A DNA stretch of 64,000 nucleotides from Acidimicrobiaceae bacterium (GTDB lineage: Bacteria; Actinomycetota; Acidimicrobiia; Acidimicrobiales; Aldehydirespiratoraceae): NCBI GenBank assembly GCA_009843915.1, contig VYCM01000141.1, positions 1 through 64,000 on the forward strand, read 5' to 3'. The notes beneath the pieces were generated by a model. That model did no database searches and was not told the DNA's origin. It saw nothing but the letters and a program-made list of their open reading frames with translations. Position 1 is the first letter of the stretch. Each line of letters begins with the position of its first letter. This document shows positions 3-24,472 of the stretch, piece by piece. A program made the translations under genes and the position numbers.

Positions 3-845
3 GGCCTCACCACCCTCACCCTCGCGTCGGTGTGGGCGCCCTCCCTGCGGCTGGGTACCGCCATCCTGCCCGTCTACACCCGCGGCCCCGCCCTGCTCGC
101 GCAGTCGGCAGCGTCGCTGGCCTCGGCCGCGCCGGGCCGCTTCGTCCTCGGTATCGGCTCGTCGTCGGACGTGATCGTCGGCCGGTGGAACGCGGTGGCG
201 TTCGACCGGCCCTATCACCGTGTGCGCGACACCATCCGCTTCCTGAGAGCGGCCATGAGCGGCGAGAAGGTCACCGAGGACTACGACACCTTCTCCGTAA
301 GCGGCTTCCGTCTCGGCGTGAGGATCGACGAGCCCGTCCCCATCTTTGTGGCCGCCCTGCGAGAGCGCATGCTGCGGCTGGCGGCACGCGAGGGCGACGG
401 GGCCATCATCAACTGGCTCTCGGCTCAGGACGCAACCCGGGTATGCGGCATCGTGAGGTCCGAGAACCCGGCAGCCGAGATAGTGGCCCGCATCTTCGTG
501 CTGCCGACTCCTGATCGTGAAGCGGCCATGGTCGCGGGCCGGTTCATCCTCGCCGCCTACCTCAACGTTCCGGTGTACCGGGCGTTCCACACCTGGCTCG
601 GCCGCACGGACGCGCTGGGCGAGCATTGGGCCCAGTGGGAGGCGGGCGACCGTCGGGGCTCTCTCGGGAAGATCCCCGAGCACGTGGTCGACGAACTGCT
701 GGTGCACGGCTCGCCCGAGGAGTGCCGCGATCACATCCAGCGCTTCGTCGACAACGGCGTGACCTGCCCCGCGCCCATGGTGCTGCCGGTCGACGGAGTG
801 GACGCGTTCGACGTGGTCAGAGCGCTGGCGCCCGCCGCGGGCTAG
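3..845 (+). CDS. LLM class F420-dependent oxidoreductase (5' truncated by window edge)
   Basis: The open frame runs off the left edge: codons from base 3 (GLTTLTLASVW...) continue into it, so the GTG at 30 is not the true start. It resembles the luciferase-like monooxygenase fold used by F420-dependent oxidoreductases: LRLGTAILPVYTR near the visible N terminus, then GRFVLGIGSSS, then PVPIFVAALRERMLRLA and GDGAIINWLS. These enzymes use reduced F420 or flavin to reduce or oxidise small organic substrates; the substrate here cannot be read from sequence. The C-terminal SPEECRDHIQRFVDNGV segment is typical. The TAG stop overlaps the stop of the convergent SDR in the tetramer CTAG. Family call is firm, specific function unknown. 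Confidence 0.85.
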   Translation, partial: GLTTLTLASVWAPSLRLGTAILPVYTRGPALLAQSAASLASAAPGRFVLGIGSSSDVIVGRWNAVAFDRPYHRVRDTIRFLRAAMSGEKVTEDYDTFSVSGFRLGVRIDEPVPIFVAALRERMLRLAAREGDGAIINWLSAQDATRVCGIVRSENPAAEIVARIFVLPTPDREAAMVAGRFILAAYLNVPVYRAFHTWLGRTDALGEHWAQWEAGDRRGSLGKIPEHVVDELLVHGSPEECRDHIQRFVDNGVTCPAPMVLPVDGVDAFDVVRALAPAAG

Positions 846-1654
846 GAACTGGGCGTTCCCAGCAGACCCCTCTGCATGCGCCGCATGCCGCGCAGCCAGC
901 GCTCCCGGTCACCGGCTCGGCGCTGCTCGTAGGTTTCCACTTCGGGGTGGGGCAGTATCAGGAACCGATCCTCCCGAAGCGCCTCCAGGGTTGCGGCCGC
1001 CACCTCTTCGGGCTCCATCAGACCCAGGGCCTACACCTGGGCCACTCCGAGCATCCGGTCAGATTCCGTCATCGGGGTGCGAACCCCCTGGGGGCACAGG
1101 CACGACACCCTCACGCCGTCGTCGCCGTGGGTGATGGCGATCCACTCGGCCAGCGCCACCGCCGCGTGCTTGGTGACCGCGTACGACGCCGTCCCCAGTC
1201 CGGTCAGCAGCCCTGCGGCCGAGGCGGTCACCAGCAGATGGCCCGAGCCTCGCTCCACCCATCTCGGCACGAGATGGCGGCAGGCGATGACATGGGCCAT
1301 CAGGTTCACGTCCCAGATTCGGTTCCACTCCTCGTTGGGGCGCTCCACCCCGCCCATGGCGGATATACCGGCGTTGCCGCACCACACCTCGATCGGGCCG
1401 AGGCTCTCCTCGACCCCATCGATCAGGGCGACCACTGCGGCCTCGTCGGTCATGTCGATCTCGGCCGCAAAGCCGACCGGGCTCCCGGCGGCAGCCTCGG
1501 CGGCGATCTCGTTGGCCACAGCCTCGGCGCCGGTCCCGTCGATGTCGGCCACCACAACCACAGCTCCCGCATCGAGCGCCAAGGCCCGGGCCAGCGAGCG
1601 TCCGATGCCGCTGGCCGCGCCCGTCACCACCGCGACAGCCCCTTCGAGTTCCAC
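842..1654 (-). pseudogene. SDR family oxidoreductase interrupted by an in-frame amber codon
   Basis: A GTG start at 1654 opens a classical short-chain dehydrogenase: VVTGAASGIG cofactor motif, CGNAGIS in place of NNAG, then a catalytic serine region and YAVTK as the Tyr-x-x-x-Lys. After 207 residues a TAG at 1031-1033 stops the frame. The same frame then stays open for 62 more codons (ALGLMEPEEVAAATLEALRE...) to a second TAG at 842-844. That distal part looks like a normal SDR C terminus, so the gene was about 270 codons long and carries one nonsense codon. No frameshift is present. It may be a young pseudogene, a sequencing error or a readthrough site. A TAGGAT box (1661-1666) lies six bases upstream of the start. 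Confidence 0.85.
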
Positions 1655-10087: not shown

Positions 10088-10233
10088 GACGCCGACATCA
10101 GAGGGTCGGACTAGACAGAAGAGCTATTGAGTCCGTCGTCACTCCTGTATCGGCGATATGGCAGGCTTTGGCGCCCGTTGGGTAAGGCGTGCGGTTCCAC
10201 GCAGCGCCGCTATCGGATGCTAGGAAGGATTGC

Positions 10234-11886
10234 ATGCCAGAAAGGCGCCCCAAGAAGGCACAAGTCAGTGCGAGCGGAGTGGCGGATCAGGGTGCCATCA
10301 CCGGCTACGAGGCCGAATTGTGGGCCATGGCCGACGCGCTACGGGGCAGTATGGACGCGGCCGAGTACAAGCATGTGGTGCTGGGCCTGATCTTTCTGAA
10401 GTACATCTCCGACGCGTTCGAGGAGCGACATGCCCAACTGATCGCCGAGCAGGACGAAGGTGCAGATCCCGAGGATCCCGACGAGTACCGGGCTGTGAAC
10501 GTGTTCTGGGTACCGCGGGAGGCCCGATGGGAGGGTCTCCAGGCCGCGGCTCGCCAACCCGATATCGGCGAGATGCTCGACGATGCCATGGTTGCGATCG
10601 AGCACGACAACCCGGCGCTCAAGGGAGTGCTGCCGAAGGACTACGCTCGCCCGGAGCTCGACAAGGTGCGCCTCGGCCAACTCATCGACATGGTGGGCAA
10701 CATCAAGGTGGGCGACGCCGAGGCCCGCTCTAAGGACGTGCTGGGCCGGGTGTACGAGTACTTCCTGTCGCAGTTCGCCAGCGCAGAGGGCAAGCGGGGC
10801 GGCGAGTTCTACACACCGAGGTGCGTGGTGAAGCTGCTGGTGGAGATGCTGGAGCCCTACAGCGGCCGGGTCTACGACCCGTGCTGCGGGTCGTCGGGCA
10901 TGTTCGTACAATCGGTGGAGTTCATCCGGGCCCACGCCACCGGCAACGGCAACAGCAGCCAATCGCGGGCGGGAGCCCGGGCCGACATCTCGATCTACGG
11001 CCAGGAGTCGAACTACACCACCTGGCGCCTGGCGAAGATGAACCTAGCGATCCGGGGCATCGAGGGCCAGATAGCCCACGGCGACACGTTCCACAACGAC
11101 CGCCACCCCGACCTGAAGGCAGACTTCATCCTGGCCAATCCGCCATTCAACGTAAAGGACTGGGGCGGCGAGCACCTAGCCGACGACAAACGTTGGCAAT
11201 TCGGCGTGCCGCCGGCCCGCAACGCCAACTTCGCCTGGGTACAGCACATGGTGCATCACCTGTCGCCGTCAGGCGTAGCCGGGTTCGTACTGGCAAACGG
11301 CTCGATGTCGTCGAAGCAGTCAGGCGAGGGCGAGATCCGCAAGCGTCTCGTCGAGGCCGACCTAGTCGACTGCATGGTGGCCCTGCCGAGCCAGCTCTTC
11401 TACTCCACTCAGATCCCAGCGTGTTTGTGGTTCGTGGCTCGGGGTCGGGGCGGGAGCCGCTTCCGCGATCGCCGCGGCGAGTTGTTGTTCATCGACGCCC
11501 GCAAGATAGGCCACATGGTCGACCGCACTCACCGCGAGTTCAGTAACGATGACATAGCCCGTATCGCCGACACCTACCACACTTGGCGGAGCTCAGGCGA
11601 CGGCTCGTACGTCGACATACCCGGCTTCTGCAAGAGCGCTAGCCGGGAGAACATTCGGCAGCACGATCACATCCTCACTCCAGGCCGCTACGTTGGAATA
11701 GAACCTGACGAGGAAGACGACGAGCCCTTCGAAGACAAGATGCGCCGTTTAGCAGCCCAATGGAGGCAACAACATTCATATGCTGCCCAATTGGACTCGG
11801 CAATCGAATCGAGCCTCAGAGACCTCGGATATGGACTGGATGCTAGTGAAGTTGGAACGAGATTAGGAACTGACTCAGATGCCTGA
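10234..11886 (+). CDS. hsdM: Type I restriction-modification system methyltransferase subunit HsdM
   Basis: HsdM supplies the adenine-methyltransferase activity of a type I system. The 550-residue product has the N-terminal HsdM helical domain ([26 protein letters not shown]), the SAM-binding motif [12 protein letters not shown] near residue 213, and the catalytic NPPF in [15 protein letters not shown] near residue 302. ATG 10234 is chosen because AGGAAGG lies six bases upstream; the open frame begins 15 codons earlier without a ribosome site. The stop overlaps hsdS by eight bases. The partner hsdR is not adjacent but about 8 kb downstream at 21353, on the same strand. Confidence 0.95.
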
Positions 11887-13201
11887 TATCCCAATGCGAG
11901 AAGCTATCAAGTTCGCGATTGGCGGAGGATGGGGCGATGAAGCTCCAAGTGCTGACACCATTCCAGTCCGCGTGATTCGAGGGACAGATTTCGCGCGGAT
12001 ACGTGAGGGAGACTACACCAGTATTCCCCGGCGACATGAGTCGATCAGAAGAGTAGAACGACGACAACTGCAGTCGGGCGATGTAGTAATGGAGATCTCT
12101 GGCGGTAGCCAGACTAGCGGACAGTCTACGGGCCGGACCCTCTTCTTATCAGATGATAATCTAATGGACTTGCAAGATATTGCCATTCCGGCCAGCTTCT
12201 GTCGTCTAGTTCGATTTAATGAGGAACATGTCGAATCCAAGTATGCGTATTATTGTCTGCAAGAGATGTATATGTCTGGCCGAGTCAAGTTATATGAGAA
12301 CCAGTCGACTGGAATCAGCAACTTTCAGTTTGAACATTTCTTGGATTCGGAGATTCTTAGTGTGCCTCCGCTCGGCAGCCAACGTTCAGTCGTTCATGTG
12401 CTTGAAACTATGGACGACAGAATACTGCTCAACCTCCGCATTGGTGAGACGCTAGAGGAGATGGCACAAGCACTTTTTCGATCGTGGTTTGTCGCTTTCG
12501 ATCCTGTCCGCGCTAGAGCAGAAGGACGAGAGCTGTCACTACCCGTACATATGGCGGATCTCTTCCCTCATCGCTTCTCGAACTCGGAACTGGGCCTCAT
12601 CCCTGAGAGTTGGACCGTTGAACCACTTAGCAAGATCGCAGATCACCTGCGGGAGACTGAACATCCCGGGGATTCGCCTAGCACGTCGTTCAGCCACCAC
12701 AGCATCCCAGCGTATGATTCTGGCATGGTGCCCGTGGAACAATACGGAAGTTCGATCAAGAGCCATAAGGCAATCGTCAAACCGGGGGCCGTCTTGATTT
12801 CAAGATTGAACCCCGAGATCGAACGCGTATGGCTGCCATACGTCTCGAATGGTGAGCGAGCTGTCTGCTCGACCGAGTTCATGGTGCTGATGCCGAGACA
12901 GCCGTTCACATCTAGCTACTTGTACTGTCTTGCTCGTTCGAAGACCTTTAGGCACAATGTCATGTCCCTCGTAACCGGTACATCCAAGAGTCATCAGCGC
13001 GCACCCGCTAAGTCGGTCATGTCGATTGGCGTACCAGTTCCACCTGCAGAGATCGTTGCCGCCTTCGACGAATACGCGAAGAGTATTCTCGACAGAGCCC
13101 AAGTTCACAGGGCGGAGGCTTCCCTTCTCGGATTGTTGCGTGATGTCTTGTTGCCGAGATTAGTGTCTGGGAGCGCTCAATCAAACGTCAACGTTCAGTA
13201 G
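11879..13201 (+). CDS. hsdS: Type I restriction-modification system specificity subunit HsdS
   Basis: HsdS determines the bipartite DNA target of the type I enzyme. The 440-residue product has two target-recognition halves: one at about 1-180 and the second at about 225-400, separated by the conserved helical spacer [28 protein letters not shown] second helical segment closes the protein ([28 protein letters not shown]). The first half in particular is visibly richer in A and T than the surrounding genome, in keeping with exchange of recognition domains by transfer. ATG 11879 overlaps hsdM by eight bases; an in-frame ATG at 11894 is an alternative. No recognition sequence can be predicted. 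Confidence 0.93.
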
Positions 13202-14926: not shown

Positions 14927-15546
14927 GCTGTGCCTCCTGTCGTCGGTCCATTGGCGGGAACGGGTTTGCCGCCCTTGATCGCAACGTCTGAACGGGCATA
15001 GACCGCTTTGCCTCTCAGTTTCGTGGCGGGCTTGATCAGTCCCCATGTTTCGGTGCGGCCACCGCCGTGGGGTCCCGATGTGCTTCGTTCGTACTTCCAG
15101 TCGTCACGATTCAGGAACGCTACATCGACACGCCAGATGATGACTTGTCGGTCGCGTTCGTAGGTGTTGGTGGTGTCGATCAGATAGCGCCAGACGATGT
15201 ACCAGCCTGGGTGGTCAAAGTGTGCTTGTATCTGCCAGGGCCGGATGCTGGCCTTTGACTCGAGGCAGTCCTGGGGCGGCGGTGGCGTGGGACTGCCGCG
15301 GCGTTGCAGATCGGGGAACTTGCCAGCGGCCACATCTCGATTGCGGTTCTTCTCGTAGACGCTGTGCATGTCGAGCGCCTTAGTGCCCCAGATGCTCACA
15401 AGACCGCTGAACATGTTGGACTGCTCGAAGTAGATTTCGACCAGGCCGTCCATGTCGCGTTCGATGAAGTCCACGGCGCTGCGGACTGCTGCCACGGTCA
15501 GGCCGTTGGGCAGGACGACGCTGGGGTCAAAGTCGTCGCGGCGCAT
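14923..15546 (-). CDS. PD-(D/E)xK nuclease-like protein, candidate restriction endonuclease
   Basis: A 207-residue protein encoded directly after, and overlapping by 20 bases, a DNA methyltransferase. Residues Pro78-Asp79 (FPDLQRRG) followed by Glu96-Ser-Lys98 (DCLESKAS) reproduce the spacing of a PD-(D/E)xK nuclease active site. Downstream there is a hydrophobic/aromatic core (IQAHFDHPGWYIVWRYLID) that fits a nuclease-fold strand and helix. The pairing implies a compact type II restriction-modification unit, but I do not recognise a named enzyme, and a nicking or accessory role is possible. Its stop overlaps the start of the small last gene of the element. Confidence 0.65.
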   Translation of the reverse strand: MRRDDFDPSVVLPNGLTVAAVRSAVDFIERDMDGLVEIYFEQSNMFSGLVSIWGTKALDMHSVYEKNRNRDVAAGKFPDLQRRGSPTPPPPQDCLESKASIRPWQIQAHFDHPGWYIVWRYLIDTTNTYERDRQVIIWRVDVAFLNRDDWKYERSTSGPHGGGRTETWGLIKPATKLRGKAVYARSDVAIKGGKPVPANGPTTGGTA

Positions 15547-16441
15547 CCGGTGGGTCCAGTGCCGCCAACTGTGGAATGGCTAGAGCGGCCTGCGTGTAGA
15601 ACTCGGCGTCGATCTCGATCCCGATACTTTCGATGCCTAGGGCCGCGGCGGCGGCAATGGTTGCGCCTGACCCCATGAACGGGTCCAAGACAACGCCATC
15701 ACCCAGCGGTAGCGACGCGTGCACCAACTGTCGCATGAGCGACTGGGGTTTCAGCGACGGATGATCTGCGATCTCGCGTTCGTAACCGCGGGCGGGTCCG
15801 CATTCGATCAGATCCCGAAACGGCACATCATCTGAGATGCGGCGTAGTCCTCCGGTTCCCCAACGTCGCAGATTGTCGCGGACTCGGCCATCGAGTGGCT
15901 TGCGGAACAAGCCCCACGGCTCCCAGTTGGCTCGTGGCATGACGCACACATTCGGGTACTCGTCATGCGCGTTTTTGGGGCGATCACCGCCGCGCAAGGT
16001 CTTGACGATCCGCACGATCTCGCCGCGCTTCTCGAACCCAGCATCGATCATCGGTCCATACACCAGATGAGACATGACCGGCGTGGTGGCGATGAACACA
16101 TGGGCGCCGGGCACCAGTACCGGCAGCACCAGTTCAGCGAACCTGGCGAAGAATCCTGCGACCATTGTCCGTTGGGTATCGCTCAACGCCGTGAATCGCG
16201 GCACGGGCCTACGTCTGGCACCGTCATAGGCGGGGGGAAGACGCCAATTGCCGCCGCGCCCGTTGCGTCGTTTGGCGAGATGGCGGGGCGTGTACTCCAC
16301 AACGCTGTACGGCGGGTCTGTGACCACAGCATGTACCGAGTTCGCAGCGATGGTCTCGATATGAGCGAACGCGTCGGCGTGGTGGATCGAATAATCCGTC
16401 AGTCGATCTGTGCCAAGAGCGGCAGTCTCAGCGATTGTCAC
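15527..16441 (-). CDS. DNA methyltransferase (N6-adenine/N4-cytosine, beta-class order)
   Basis: The 304-residue protein has catalytic motif DPPY (VVTDPPYSVVEY) near residue 37 and the SAM-binding motif DPFMGSGATIAAAAAL near residue 260. This catalytic-first, SAM-last order is the beta-class arrangement used by CcrM-like enzymes. A target-recognition region lies between. GTG 16441 is selected because it overlaps the transposase stop as GTGA and removes a long unrelated upstream extension of the open frame. As transposon cargo it could protect DNA from the adjoining nuclease-like protein, or act as an orphan methylase. Target sequence unknown. Confidence 0.9.
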   Translation of the reverse strand: MTIAETAALGTDRLTDYSIHHADAFAHIETIAANSVHAVVTDPPYSVVEYTPRHLAKRRNGRGGNWRLPPAYDGARRRPVPRFTALSDTQRTMVAGFFARFAELVLPVLVPGAHVFIATTPVMSHLVYGPMIDAGFEKRGEIVRIVKTLRGGDRPKNAHDEYPNVCVMPRANWEPWGLFRKPLDGRVRDNLRRWGTGGLRRISDDVPFRDLIECGPARGYEREIADHPSLKPQSLMRQLVHASLPLGDGVVLDPFMGSGATIAAAAALGIESIGIEIDAEFYTQAALAIPQLAALDPPDAPRRL

Positions 16442-17424
16442 GATCCGGGCCCTGCGGCAACCAGGTCGGTGTAGGTAAGTTGCTTGCCGACCATGCCGCG
16501 CACGGTGTCGGCCATCATGTCGATGGTGTCCATCGACCTTCGGCTGTGCCGTCCGGCGAACTCCTGGACGTAACGGTCCAGATGCTCCGCGCTGACGTGA
16601 TGGAACGTGCCGTGGTAGCCGCGACGCAGCATCGACCAGAAGCTCTCGCAGCCGTTGACGTGGGCCATGCCGTCCACATACTGGCCGACCGAATGGCGCA
16701 CACTGCGATGCTTCGGCAGTCCCCGATAGGAACCGTGTTCGTCGGTGTAGACCATCGCATCCACTCCGGCGTGGTCGGTGACGAACCCTTGCAGGGTCGC
16801 CTTGTCTGTCGCCTCGACCACCGTAGCGCGAACCGCGTTCGTTGCCCGGTCTTTGATCGCGACGACCGGCGTCTTGCCTGCCACACCGCGGCCGTGGATG
16901 CGGTCGCGGCGCTGACGTGCACTCATGTTGTGAGCTTTGCCACCGAAGTAGGCCTCGTCCACTTCCACACCCTCGGACCCGTCGAACGGTTCGCCTGCCA
17001 GGTCGTCCCAGCACTGCCGCACCCGGTGTGCCAGATGCCAAGCCGACTTCTGGCAGATGCCCAGATCGCGGTGAAGCTTCATGCTGGAGACGGACTTCAG
17101 GTTGGTGTTGTACAGGTAGATGGCGATGGCCCACTCCTGATAGCCCAACTTGGAGTCCTGCATCACCGTGCCGACCTTCACGCTGAAGAACCGGCGACAC
17201 CCGTTGCCGCGGCACCGATACGGCATCGTCTTGTGCGCCGTCGGAGTCTGCACATTCGTGCATCCGCACCGCGGACACTCGGGTCCGTCCGGCCACCGGA
17301 TCGACGCGATCCACGCCTCTGCGGTCGCGTCGTCGGGGAAACGGCGGATCAACTCGACGATGGTCATGCCCTTGCGGAACGCTTTGCCTGGGGCCTTGGT
17401 CTGCGGGTTCTTCTTCTCGGTCAT
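16438..17424 (-). CDS. tnpA: IS1595-family transposase (ISXO2-like)
   Basis: The 328-residue product carries an N-terminal zinc ribbon (CPRCGCTNVQ … YRCRGNGC) and the ISXO2-like catalytic core with acidic residues in VEVDEAYFGGK and VYTDEHGSY and the late motif NGCESFWSMLRRGYHG. The helix LGYQEWAIAIYLYNTNLKSVSS is characteristic of IS1595 transposases. Translation probably starts at ATG 17424; the frame is open for 20 more codons into the terminal repeat but these look non-coding. It catalyses cut-and-paste type movement of the element defined by the 25-bp repeats. The frame and motifs are intact. Its stop is coupled to the methyltransferase start. Confidence 0.95.
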   Translation of the reverse strand: MTEKKNPQTKAPGKAFRKGMTIVELIRRFPDDATAEAWIASIRWPDGPECPRCGCTNVQTPTAHKTMPYRCRGNGCRRFFSVKVGTVMQDSKLGYQEWAIAIYLYNTNLKSVSSMKLHRDLGICQKSAWHLAHRVRQCWDDLAGEPFDGSEGVEVDEAYFGGKAHNMSARQRRDRIHGRGVAGKTPVVAIKDRATNAVRATVVEATDKATLQGFVTDHAGVDAMVYTDEHGSYRGLPKHRSVRHSVGQYVDGMAHVNGCESFWSMLRRGYHGTFHHVSAEHLDRYVQEFAGRHSRRSMDTIDMMADTVRGMVGKQLTYTDLVAAGPGS

Positions 17425-21352: not shown

Positions 21353-24300
21353 GTGAACGCGCTGAATGAGGCCGAGGTCGAGGCGGCTGCCGTCAGCTGG
21401 CTGGGGGAGTTGGGCTGGAGCGTCGCCCATGGGCCGGAGGTCAACCCGGAATCGGCGCCGTCGGAGCGGGCTGACTACAGCGCGGTGGTGCTGGCGGCGA
21501 CGTTGCGAGGGGCACTAGCACGGCTCAACCCGACGCTGCCCGGCGAGGCGCTGAGTGATGCCGTTCGTCGCCTGGCTCATCCGGAGGGTGCGATCACGCA
21601 GGCTCGCAACCGGGCGTTCCATCGCATGGTCATTGACGGTGTGGCCGTTGAGTACAGCGACGGCGGGCGGATCCGGGGCGCGCAGGCTCGGGTGATCGAC
21701 TTCGATGACGTTTCTAACAACGACTGGTTGGCTGTCAACCAGTTCACCGTTGTGGAGAACAAGATCGAGCGGCGCCCCGACGTAGTGCTGTTCGTCAATG
21801 GGCTGCCACTCGGTGTGATCGAGCTCAAGAACCCCACGGACCCCGAGGCAACAATCTGGACCGCCTGGCAGCAGCTCCAGACCTACAAAGCGGACTTGCC
21901 CACGATGTTCTCGCTGAACGCGGCTCTGATGGTGTCGGACGGCCTCGAAGCACGCCTGGGCACGCTCACCGCAGGTCGCGAGTGGTTCAAGCCCTGGCGC
22001 ACCATCACCGGCGAGGAACTCGCCGACGAGACACTGCCGCAGCTTCAAGTGCTGCTGCAGGGCGTGTGCGATCACCGACGGTTTCTCGACTTGATCCGCG
22101 ACTTCATCGTGTTCGAGGACGACGGCAGCGGTCAGCTTGAGAAGAAGATCGCTGGCTATCACCAGTTCCATGCGGTGCAGGCCGCGGTGGACGAGACCCT
22201 GCGCGCCGCAGCACTCCGGCAGGCTGCGAGCCGAACCTCGGGTCGCAGGTCGGGCGGCGAGCCCGGTGACCGGCGCATCGGGGTGGTCTGGCACACCCAA
22301 GGGTCGGGCAAGAGCCTGACCATGGCCTTCTACACGGGTCAGATCGTCCGCGAACCGGCCATGTCCAACCCCACTGTCGTCGTGCTCACCGACCGCAACG
22401 ACCTCGACGACCAGCTGTTCGCCACCTTCGCCAACTGCACCGACCTGCTGCGTCAGCCGCCGGTGCAAGCCGAGACCCGAGTCCACCTACGACAACTCCT
22501 GAACACCGCATCGGGTGGCGTGGTGTTCACCACAATCCAGAAGTTCTTCCCCGATGAGAAGGGCGACCGGCATCCGTTGCTGTCGGACCGGCGCAACATC
22601 GTCGTCATCGCCGATGAGGCCCACCGCAGCCAGTACGACTTCATCGACGGCTTCGCGGCCCACATGCGCGACGCGTTGCCCAATGCCTCCTTCATCGGCT
22701 TCACCGGCACACCTATTGAGAAAGCCGACGCCAACACCCGAGCGGTCTTCGGTGACCACATCAGCGTCTACGACATCCAGCGCTCCGTGCAGGACAAGGC
22801 GACAGTGCCGATCTACTACGAGAGCCGCCTGGCCCGACTCGCCCTCGACGACCGCCAGAAGCCACATATTGACCCCGACTTCGAAGAGGCCACCGAGGGC
22901 GAAGAGGTCGAGCGCAAGGAGAAGCTCAAGACCAAGTGGGCTCAGCTTGAGGCTGTCGTCGGCGCGGACAAGCGAATATCACAGGTGGCGGCGGACATTG
23001 TCGACCACTACGAGACCCGCCTCGACGCGATGGACGGCAAGGCCATGGTGGTGTGTATGAGCCGCCGCATCTGCGTTGACCTCCACGACGAGCTAGTACG
23101 GCTGCGCCCCGACTGGTACCACCCGGACGATGACGAGGGCGCCATCAAGGTCGTGATGACTGGCTCTGCGTCGGACGGGCCCGAATGGCAGCCCCACATC
23201 CGCAACAAGGCCCGCCGCGAGGCGCTCGGCAAGCGGTTCCGCGATCCCGACGACCCGATGAGAATTGTCCTCGTCCGGGACATGTGGCTCACTGGCTTCG
23301 ACGCGCCCAGCCTTCACACCATGTACGTGGACAAGCCCATGCGAGGCCACGGACTGATGCAGGCCATCGCCAGGGTCAACCGGGTATTCCGCGACAAACC
23401 CGGCGGACTCGTCGTGGATTACCTCGGGCTGGCCCACGAACTCAAGAGGGCGCTTGCCACCTATTCGGAAAGCGGCGGCCGAGGCGAGACGGCGCTCGAT
23501 CAGGCTGAAGCCGTAGCGGTGATGCGAGAGAAGTACGAGATATGCCGCGGCCTGTTCTGGGGCTTCGACTGGTCCAGCTGGACAGACGGCGACGCGCAGA
23601 CACGTCTCGGACTACTGCCGGCCGCGTTGGAACACATCCTGTCCCAGGAAGACGGCAAAGATCGCTACACCACGGCGGTGCGAGAGCTCTCCCAGGCGTT
23701 CGCGTTGGCCGTGCCCAATCCGGCCGCTCTGTCCATCCGCAACGACGTGGCGTTCTTCCAAGCCGTAGCCGCGGCGCTCTCAAAGCCCACGCCCGGCGAG
23801 GCTCGCCACGAAGAGGACCTCGACCACGCCGTCCGTCAGATCATCTCACGGGCTGTCGCACCTCAGGGTGTGCTCGACATCTTCGCTGCTGCCGGTCTCG
23901 ACAAACCCGACATCTCGGTGCTGTCCGAGGAGTTCCTGGCCGAGGTTCGGGGTCTGCCCCAGCGAAACCTTGCCGTCGAGGCACTGCGCCGGCTGTTGCA
24001 GGGCGAGGTGACCCGCCGACGAGCACGCAATGTCGTGCAGGCTCGGTCGTTCGCCGAGATGCTTGAGCAGTCCATCCGCCGCTACCAGAACCGCGCCATT
24101 GAAGCCGCTCAGGTGATCGAGGAGCTGATCGGCATAGCCGAGGAGATTCGCGAAGCCGACGCACGGGGCGAACAGCTCGGCCTAACCGACGATGAGCTCG
24201 CCTTCTACGACGCGCTGGAAACCAACGACAGCGCTGTCAAGATCCTCGGCGACGAGACCCTGCGGGCCATCGCCTGCGAATTGGTCGAAACGGTCCGCAT

Positions 24301-24472
24301 GAACGTCAAGATTGACTGGACCATGCGCGAGAACGTTCGGGCCAACATCCGCCGCCTAGTCCGACGAATCCTGCGACGACATGGCTACCCGCCCGACAAG
24401 CAAGAGAAGGCGACCCAGACCGTCCTAGAGCAAGCCGAAGCCCTGTCAGCGGTTTGGGCCCAAGCTGCCTAA
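21353..24472 (+). CDS. hsdR: Type I restriction endonuclease subunit HsdR
   Basis: HsdR provides ATP-driven DNA translocation and cleavage. The 1,039-residue product has the N-terminal RecB-like nuclease site at about 142-160 (RPDVV … GVIELKNP), Walker [14 protein letters not shown] near residue 318, the DEAH box in [14 protein letters not shown] near 420, and later helicase motifs ([31 protein letters not shown]). The C-terminal helical part is typical. GTG 21353 follows GAGG by about ten bases. It is separated from hsdMS by about 8 kb of other defence genes but has the same orientation, so it is probably the functional partner of that pair. Confidence 0.95.

Follow-up and report, generated by a model that had tools for sequence, protein, structure and literature searches.

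A single in-frame TAG in an otherwise intact short-chain dehydrogenase/reductase gene of an Acidimicrobiaceae draft genome

The SDR reading frame and its surroundings

The window, meaning the whole stretch of 64,000 nucleotides analyzed here (C151:1-64000), belongs to a draft genome of 3.24 Mb that is divided into 151 contigs and is 87.8% complete. Close to its left end, a short-chain dehydrogenase/reductase (SDR) frame on the minus strand converges with a neighboring gene on the plus strand. The following features were distinguished:

842..1654, minus strand: interrupted full SDR frame, 271 codons counting the interrupting and the final stop; 13 orthologues from the genus are of like extent
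1034..1654, minus strand: translated part, 207 residues with a Rossmann fold (Pfam match, alignment and predicted fold)
1031..1033, minus strand: in-frame TAG at codon 208, where 13/13 genus orthologues have a sense codon
845..1030, minus strand: conserved C-terminal SDR part, 62 sense codons after the stop (alignment and predicted fold)
842..844, minus strand: final TAG of the frame; it and the convergent gene's stop overlap at the palindrome CTAG
3..845, plus strand: convergent neighbor, truncated by the contig start and intact as far as seen (ORF and stretches of relatives)

The SDR frame starts with a GTG at 1654, and its ORF translation runs to 842 without a frameshift. After 207 sense codons it is interrupted by the TAG at 1031-1033; no second internal stop occurs in the frame, and 62 further sense codons lead to its own terminal TAG. 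An earlier reading made from the sequence only had described the same codon counts and the absence of frameshifts, and on all of this it was right, the TAG being the sole lesion. The string LGLMEPEEVAAATLEALRE is present directly after this TAG plus one Ala. An old, decaying pseudogene was rejected as an explanation since the frame carries no other lesions.

The convergent neighbor is presumably a luciferase-like oxidoreductase. The palindrome CTAG at 842-845 consists of the overlapping stops of the two convergent genes, and this overlap of four bases is kept in the stretches of six relatives (L116, L117, L118, L119, L120 and L121). With the premature SDR stop, the coding regions of the two genes no longer touch.

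Elsewhere in the window, the aligned genus mates L116, L118 and L120 lack the segment 9634-24480 at the corresponding position, while L119 retains part of the segment's right end. The segment is a type I restriction-modification locus whose subunit genes are interspersed with others. It encodes HsdM (10189-11886), HsdS (11879-13201) and HsdR (21353-24472), together with a trypsin-like protein, an N6/N4 DNA methylase and a ThiF protein. Weak matches to 15000-16500 were detected in just three of the 15 genus mates.

Identity of the gene

The 207-residue part before the stop was searched against Pfam and matched adh_short (PF00106) at residues 7-199 (E 2e-38), which agrees with the SDR identity proposed earlier. 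None of the 25 NCBIfam models listed reached its curated cut-off. The alignment showed that T11-G18, N94-G96, S145, Y158 and K162 are all kept, and we take the corresponding TGxxxGxG, NAG and YxxxK of the 207-residue part to be the SDR cofactor and catalytic motifs. Among solved structures, the best match in the sequence search was 4ya6, a C alpha-dehydrogenase (E 3e-33); in the fold search 3tjr ranked first and 4ya6 (LigO) second, with a TM of 0.76. Judged from these matches and motifs, the gene is a classical SDR. As translated, it lacks the complete fold with the C-terminal part, 63 of the 270 codon positions being gone, and as a caution the annotated SDR protein will be short by this number of positions.

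The part lost beyond the stop

Because 60 of the 62 residues after the stop are identical to those of L007, the nearest orthologue, the frame there is more than a chance one. The three codons that differ all belong to the final four sense codons. Twenty-six homologues, hand-picked from those retrieved and sharing 48-95% identity with the window's protein, were aligned, and 14 columns after the stop are invariant among them. Both observations bear out the earlier impression that this segment is the proper C terminus.

The predicted fold (mean pLDDT 83.2, pTM 0.84) contains after the stop a helix at residues 215-227, a two-residue strand near 232-233 and two helices at 237-246 and 250-264, while a predicted helix at 203-210 is severed near its end by the stop. 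By block, pLDDT was 63 and 54 over residues 191-210, then 86, 90 and 80 over residues 211-240, and 66, 66 and 51 over residues 241-270. According to this model, the SDR fold would be completed by the helices and the short strand that lie after the stop. Since the invariant columns and the predicted helices and strand lie beyond the stop, the 207-residue product would be without conserved parts of the fold, and it is probably unstable or inactive. One might argue that the SDR still works in its shortened form of 207 residues, as the cofactor and catalytic motifs precede the stop and adh_short matches at residues 7-199. However, the part lost holds the invariant columns, completes the predicted fold and is kept by all 13 orthologues in the genus, and we regard a working short form as extremely improbable.

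Orthologues and codon 208

The gene was compared with 15 genus mates, with one genome per species. An orthologue was present in 13 of them (77-94% identity, 267-271 aa), in each case without an internal stop and open through codon 208. In G003 and G012, drafts that are 96 and 93% complete, no orthologue was found, and the SDRs detected there were all distant (best E 3.3e-27 and 4.9e-20). Given these two of 15 genomes, the SDR gene seems to be dispensable.

Codon 208 is GAG in seven of the 13 genus orthologues, AGG in three, AAG in two and CGA in one, so that the presumably inactivating lesion is missing from every genus orthologue, which is the pattern looked for in a pseudogene. An unrooted tree built from 14 sequences pairs the window's gene with L007 (genome G008). 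Because GAG is found at this codon in L007 and in five of the six closest orthologues overall (L007-L012, the exception being L010), the stop is explicable by one lineage-specific substitution. Among the broader homologue rows, many of which represent one gene retrieved twice, no stop was detected at the codon-208 column besides that of the window's own copy; L066, L072 and L073 have no codon there. One stop each was found elsewhere in the match in the broader homologues L026, L028 and L062, and SDR matches with a stop in further genomes had TAA in G052 and TGA in G016 and G036.

Selection signal

Relative to L007-L012, no synonymous change is unique to the window's gene, and two nonsynonymous changes are; both precede the stop, and the part beyond it has none. 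Between the window and L007, dN/dS was 0.38 before the stop and 0.75 after it, the latter from only one synonymous and two nonsynonymous changes; only three of the 62 codons after the stop differ in this pair, which is a small basis for a comparison of relaxed selection. For L007-L009 the value before the stop was 0.365, and for the window against L008-L012 it was 0.10-0.33 before and 0.12-0.24 after the stop. On such sequence comparisons, the dN/dS figures cannot tell apart a young pseudogene, a base error and a selected gene. Because there is no decay beyond the stop, the time since the change would be too short to show lost selection.

Contig and assembly quality

A consensus base error or a strain mixture in the metagenome assembly, with the gene of the organism intact, is possible although on the unlikely side. 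The genome is an incomplete draft in many contigs, the records of its relatives are titled MAGs, and the TAG is 1031 bases away from where the contig begins. Furthermore, a lone substitution with no other lesion, found in no relative, would be expected from such an error, and the absence of decay past the stop fits it equally well.

The rest of the window argues against a generally error-rich contig. Coding-like ORFs of relatives (134 in number, at least 120 aa, selected by codon-position G+C and greedily without overlap) were taken from 12 stretches of five to six genus mates and compared with the window at no less than 70% identity. This marked 39 conserved window genes, of which 3-842 (cut by the contig) and 22283-23275 were covered partly, while 9.6-22 kb had no genes of relatives to compare. 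No internal stop was found in the 38 others, the SDR gene being the sole exception. Its internal stop was seen in 5/5 comparisons, and a sixth (L120), dropped by the ORF selection, shows the same stop. An error-rich contig was therefore not supported over the compared part, that is, outside 9.6-22 kb.

Recoding and readthrough

Terminal stops were counted in 38 of the conserved window genes, all but 22283-23275: TGA occurs in 22, TAG in 15, the SDR gene among them, and TAA in one. TAG is an ordinary stop here, and amber reassignment was rejected on these counts. Among 30 tRNA matches in the genome, ARAGORN read no CUA anticodon, in a set that is incomplete (tRNAs for Asp, Ile, Phe and Trp are not listed); a suppressor tRNA was thus not found within this set. 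None of the 30 matches falls in the window. Conserved readthrough was likewise rejected, the stop being present in none of the 13 genus orthologues.

Belinky et al. (2021; PMC7918605) describe in-frame stops in bacterial genes as widespread and mostly short-lived, and argue that they are frequently read through at a low level. To keep artefacts down, only stops common to at least two species were counted there. Such readthrough, together with the intact frame and sequence after the stop, would suit a functional TAG from which some full-length enzyme is made and the gene is down-tuned. We consider this very unlikely, however, given that no orthologue of the genus has the stop, that the cited study counted only stops present in more than one species, that TAG ends so many conserved genes including this one, and that no CUA anticodon occurs among the tRNA matches. 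A more specific variant, in which the stop is real and tolerated and low-level amber readthrough gives a little full-length SDR as a recent regulatory down-tuning in one symbiont lineage, is offered as a faint speculation. Of the three options in the sequence-only reading, functional readthrough is accordingly disfavored, while a young pseudogene and a base error both stand and look the same in the sequence.

Interpretation

Taken together, a very recent, lineage-specific nonsense change is the explanation we moderately favor, which would probably have inactivated an otherwise intact classical SDR gene. If the base is real, a single nonsense substitution in the lineage of this genome would have struck the gene very recently, and translation would stop after 207 of the 270 codons. 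The product would still have the core that binds the nucleotide, as well as the catalytic Tyr/Lys. It would be missing the remainder of the substrate loop, one helix-strand unit and both C-terminal helices. Probably unstable or inactive, it would leave the gene a young pseudogene or, at the level of the strain, an allele without function. An isolated nonsense mutation in a single draft genome is to be expected and carries little significance.

Comparison with known systems

LigO of Sphingobium (4ya6) is a classical SDR like the window's gene, with about 29% identity. Its residues 229-264 align with residues 213-250 of the window's protein after the stop, in a weak match of 12.8 bits. Much closer is the orthologous SDR of Acidimicrobiaceae MAGs (L037, VYBO01000108.1), which has the same length, start region and convergent overlap and 94% protein identity, but differs in having a sense codon 208 and a full-length protein. 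The cases of Belinky et al. (PMC7918605) occur in at least two species, whereas the window's stop occurs in one genome and fails that criterion; a single, very young TAG in a conserved frame is the feature shared with them. The stop described here is nothing new in kind.
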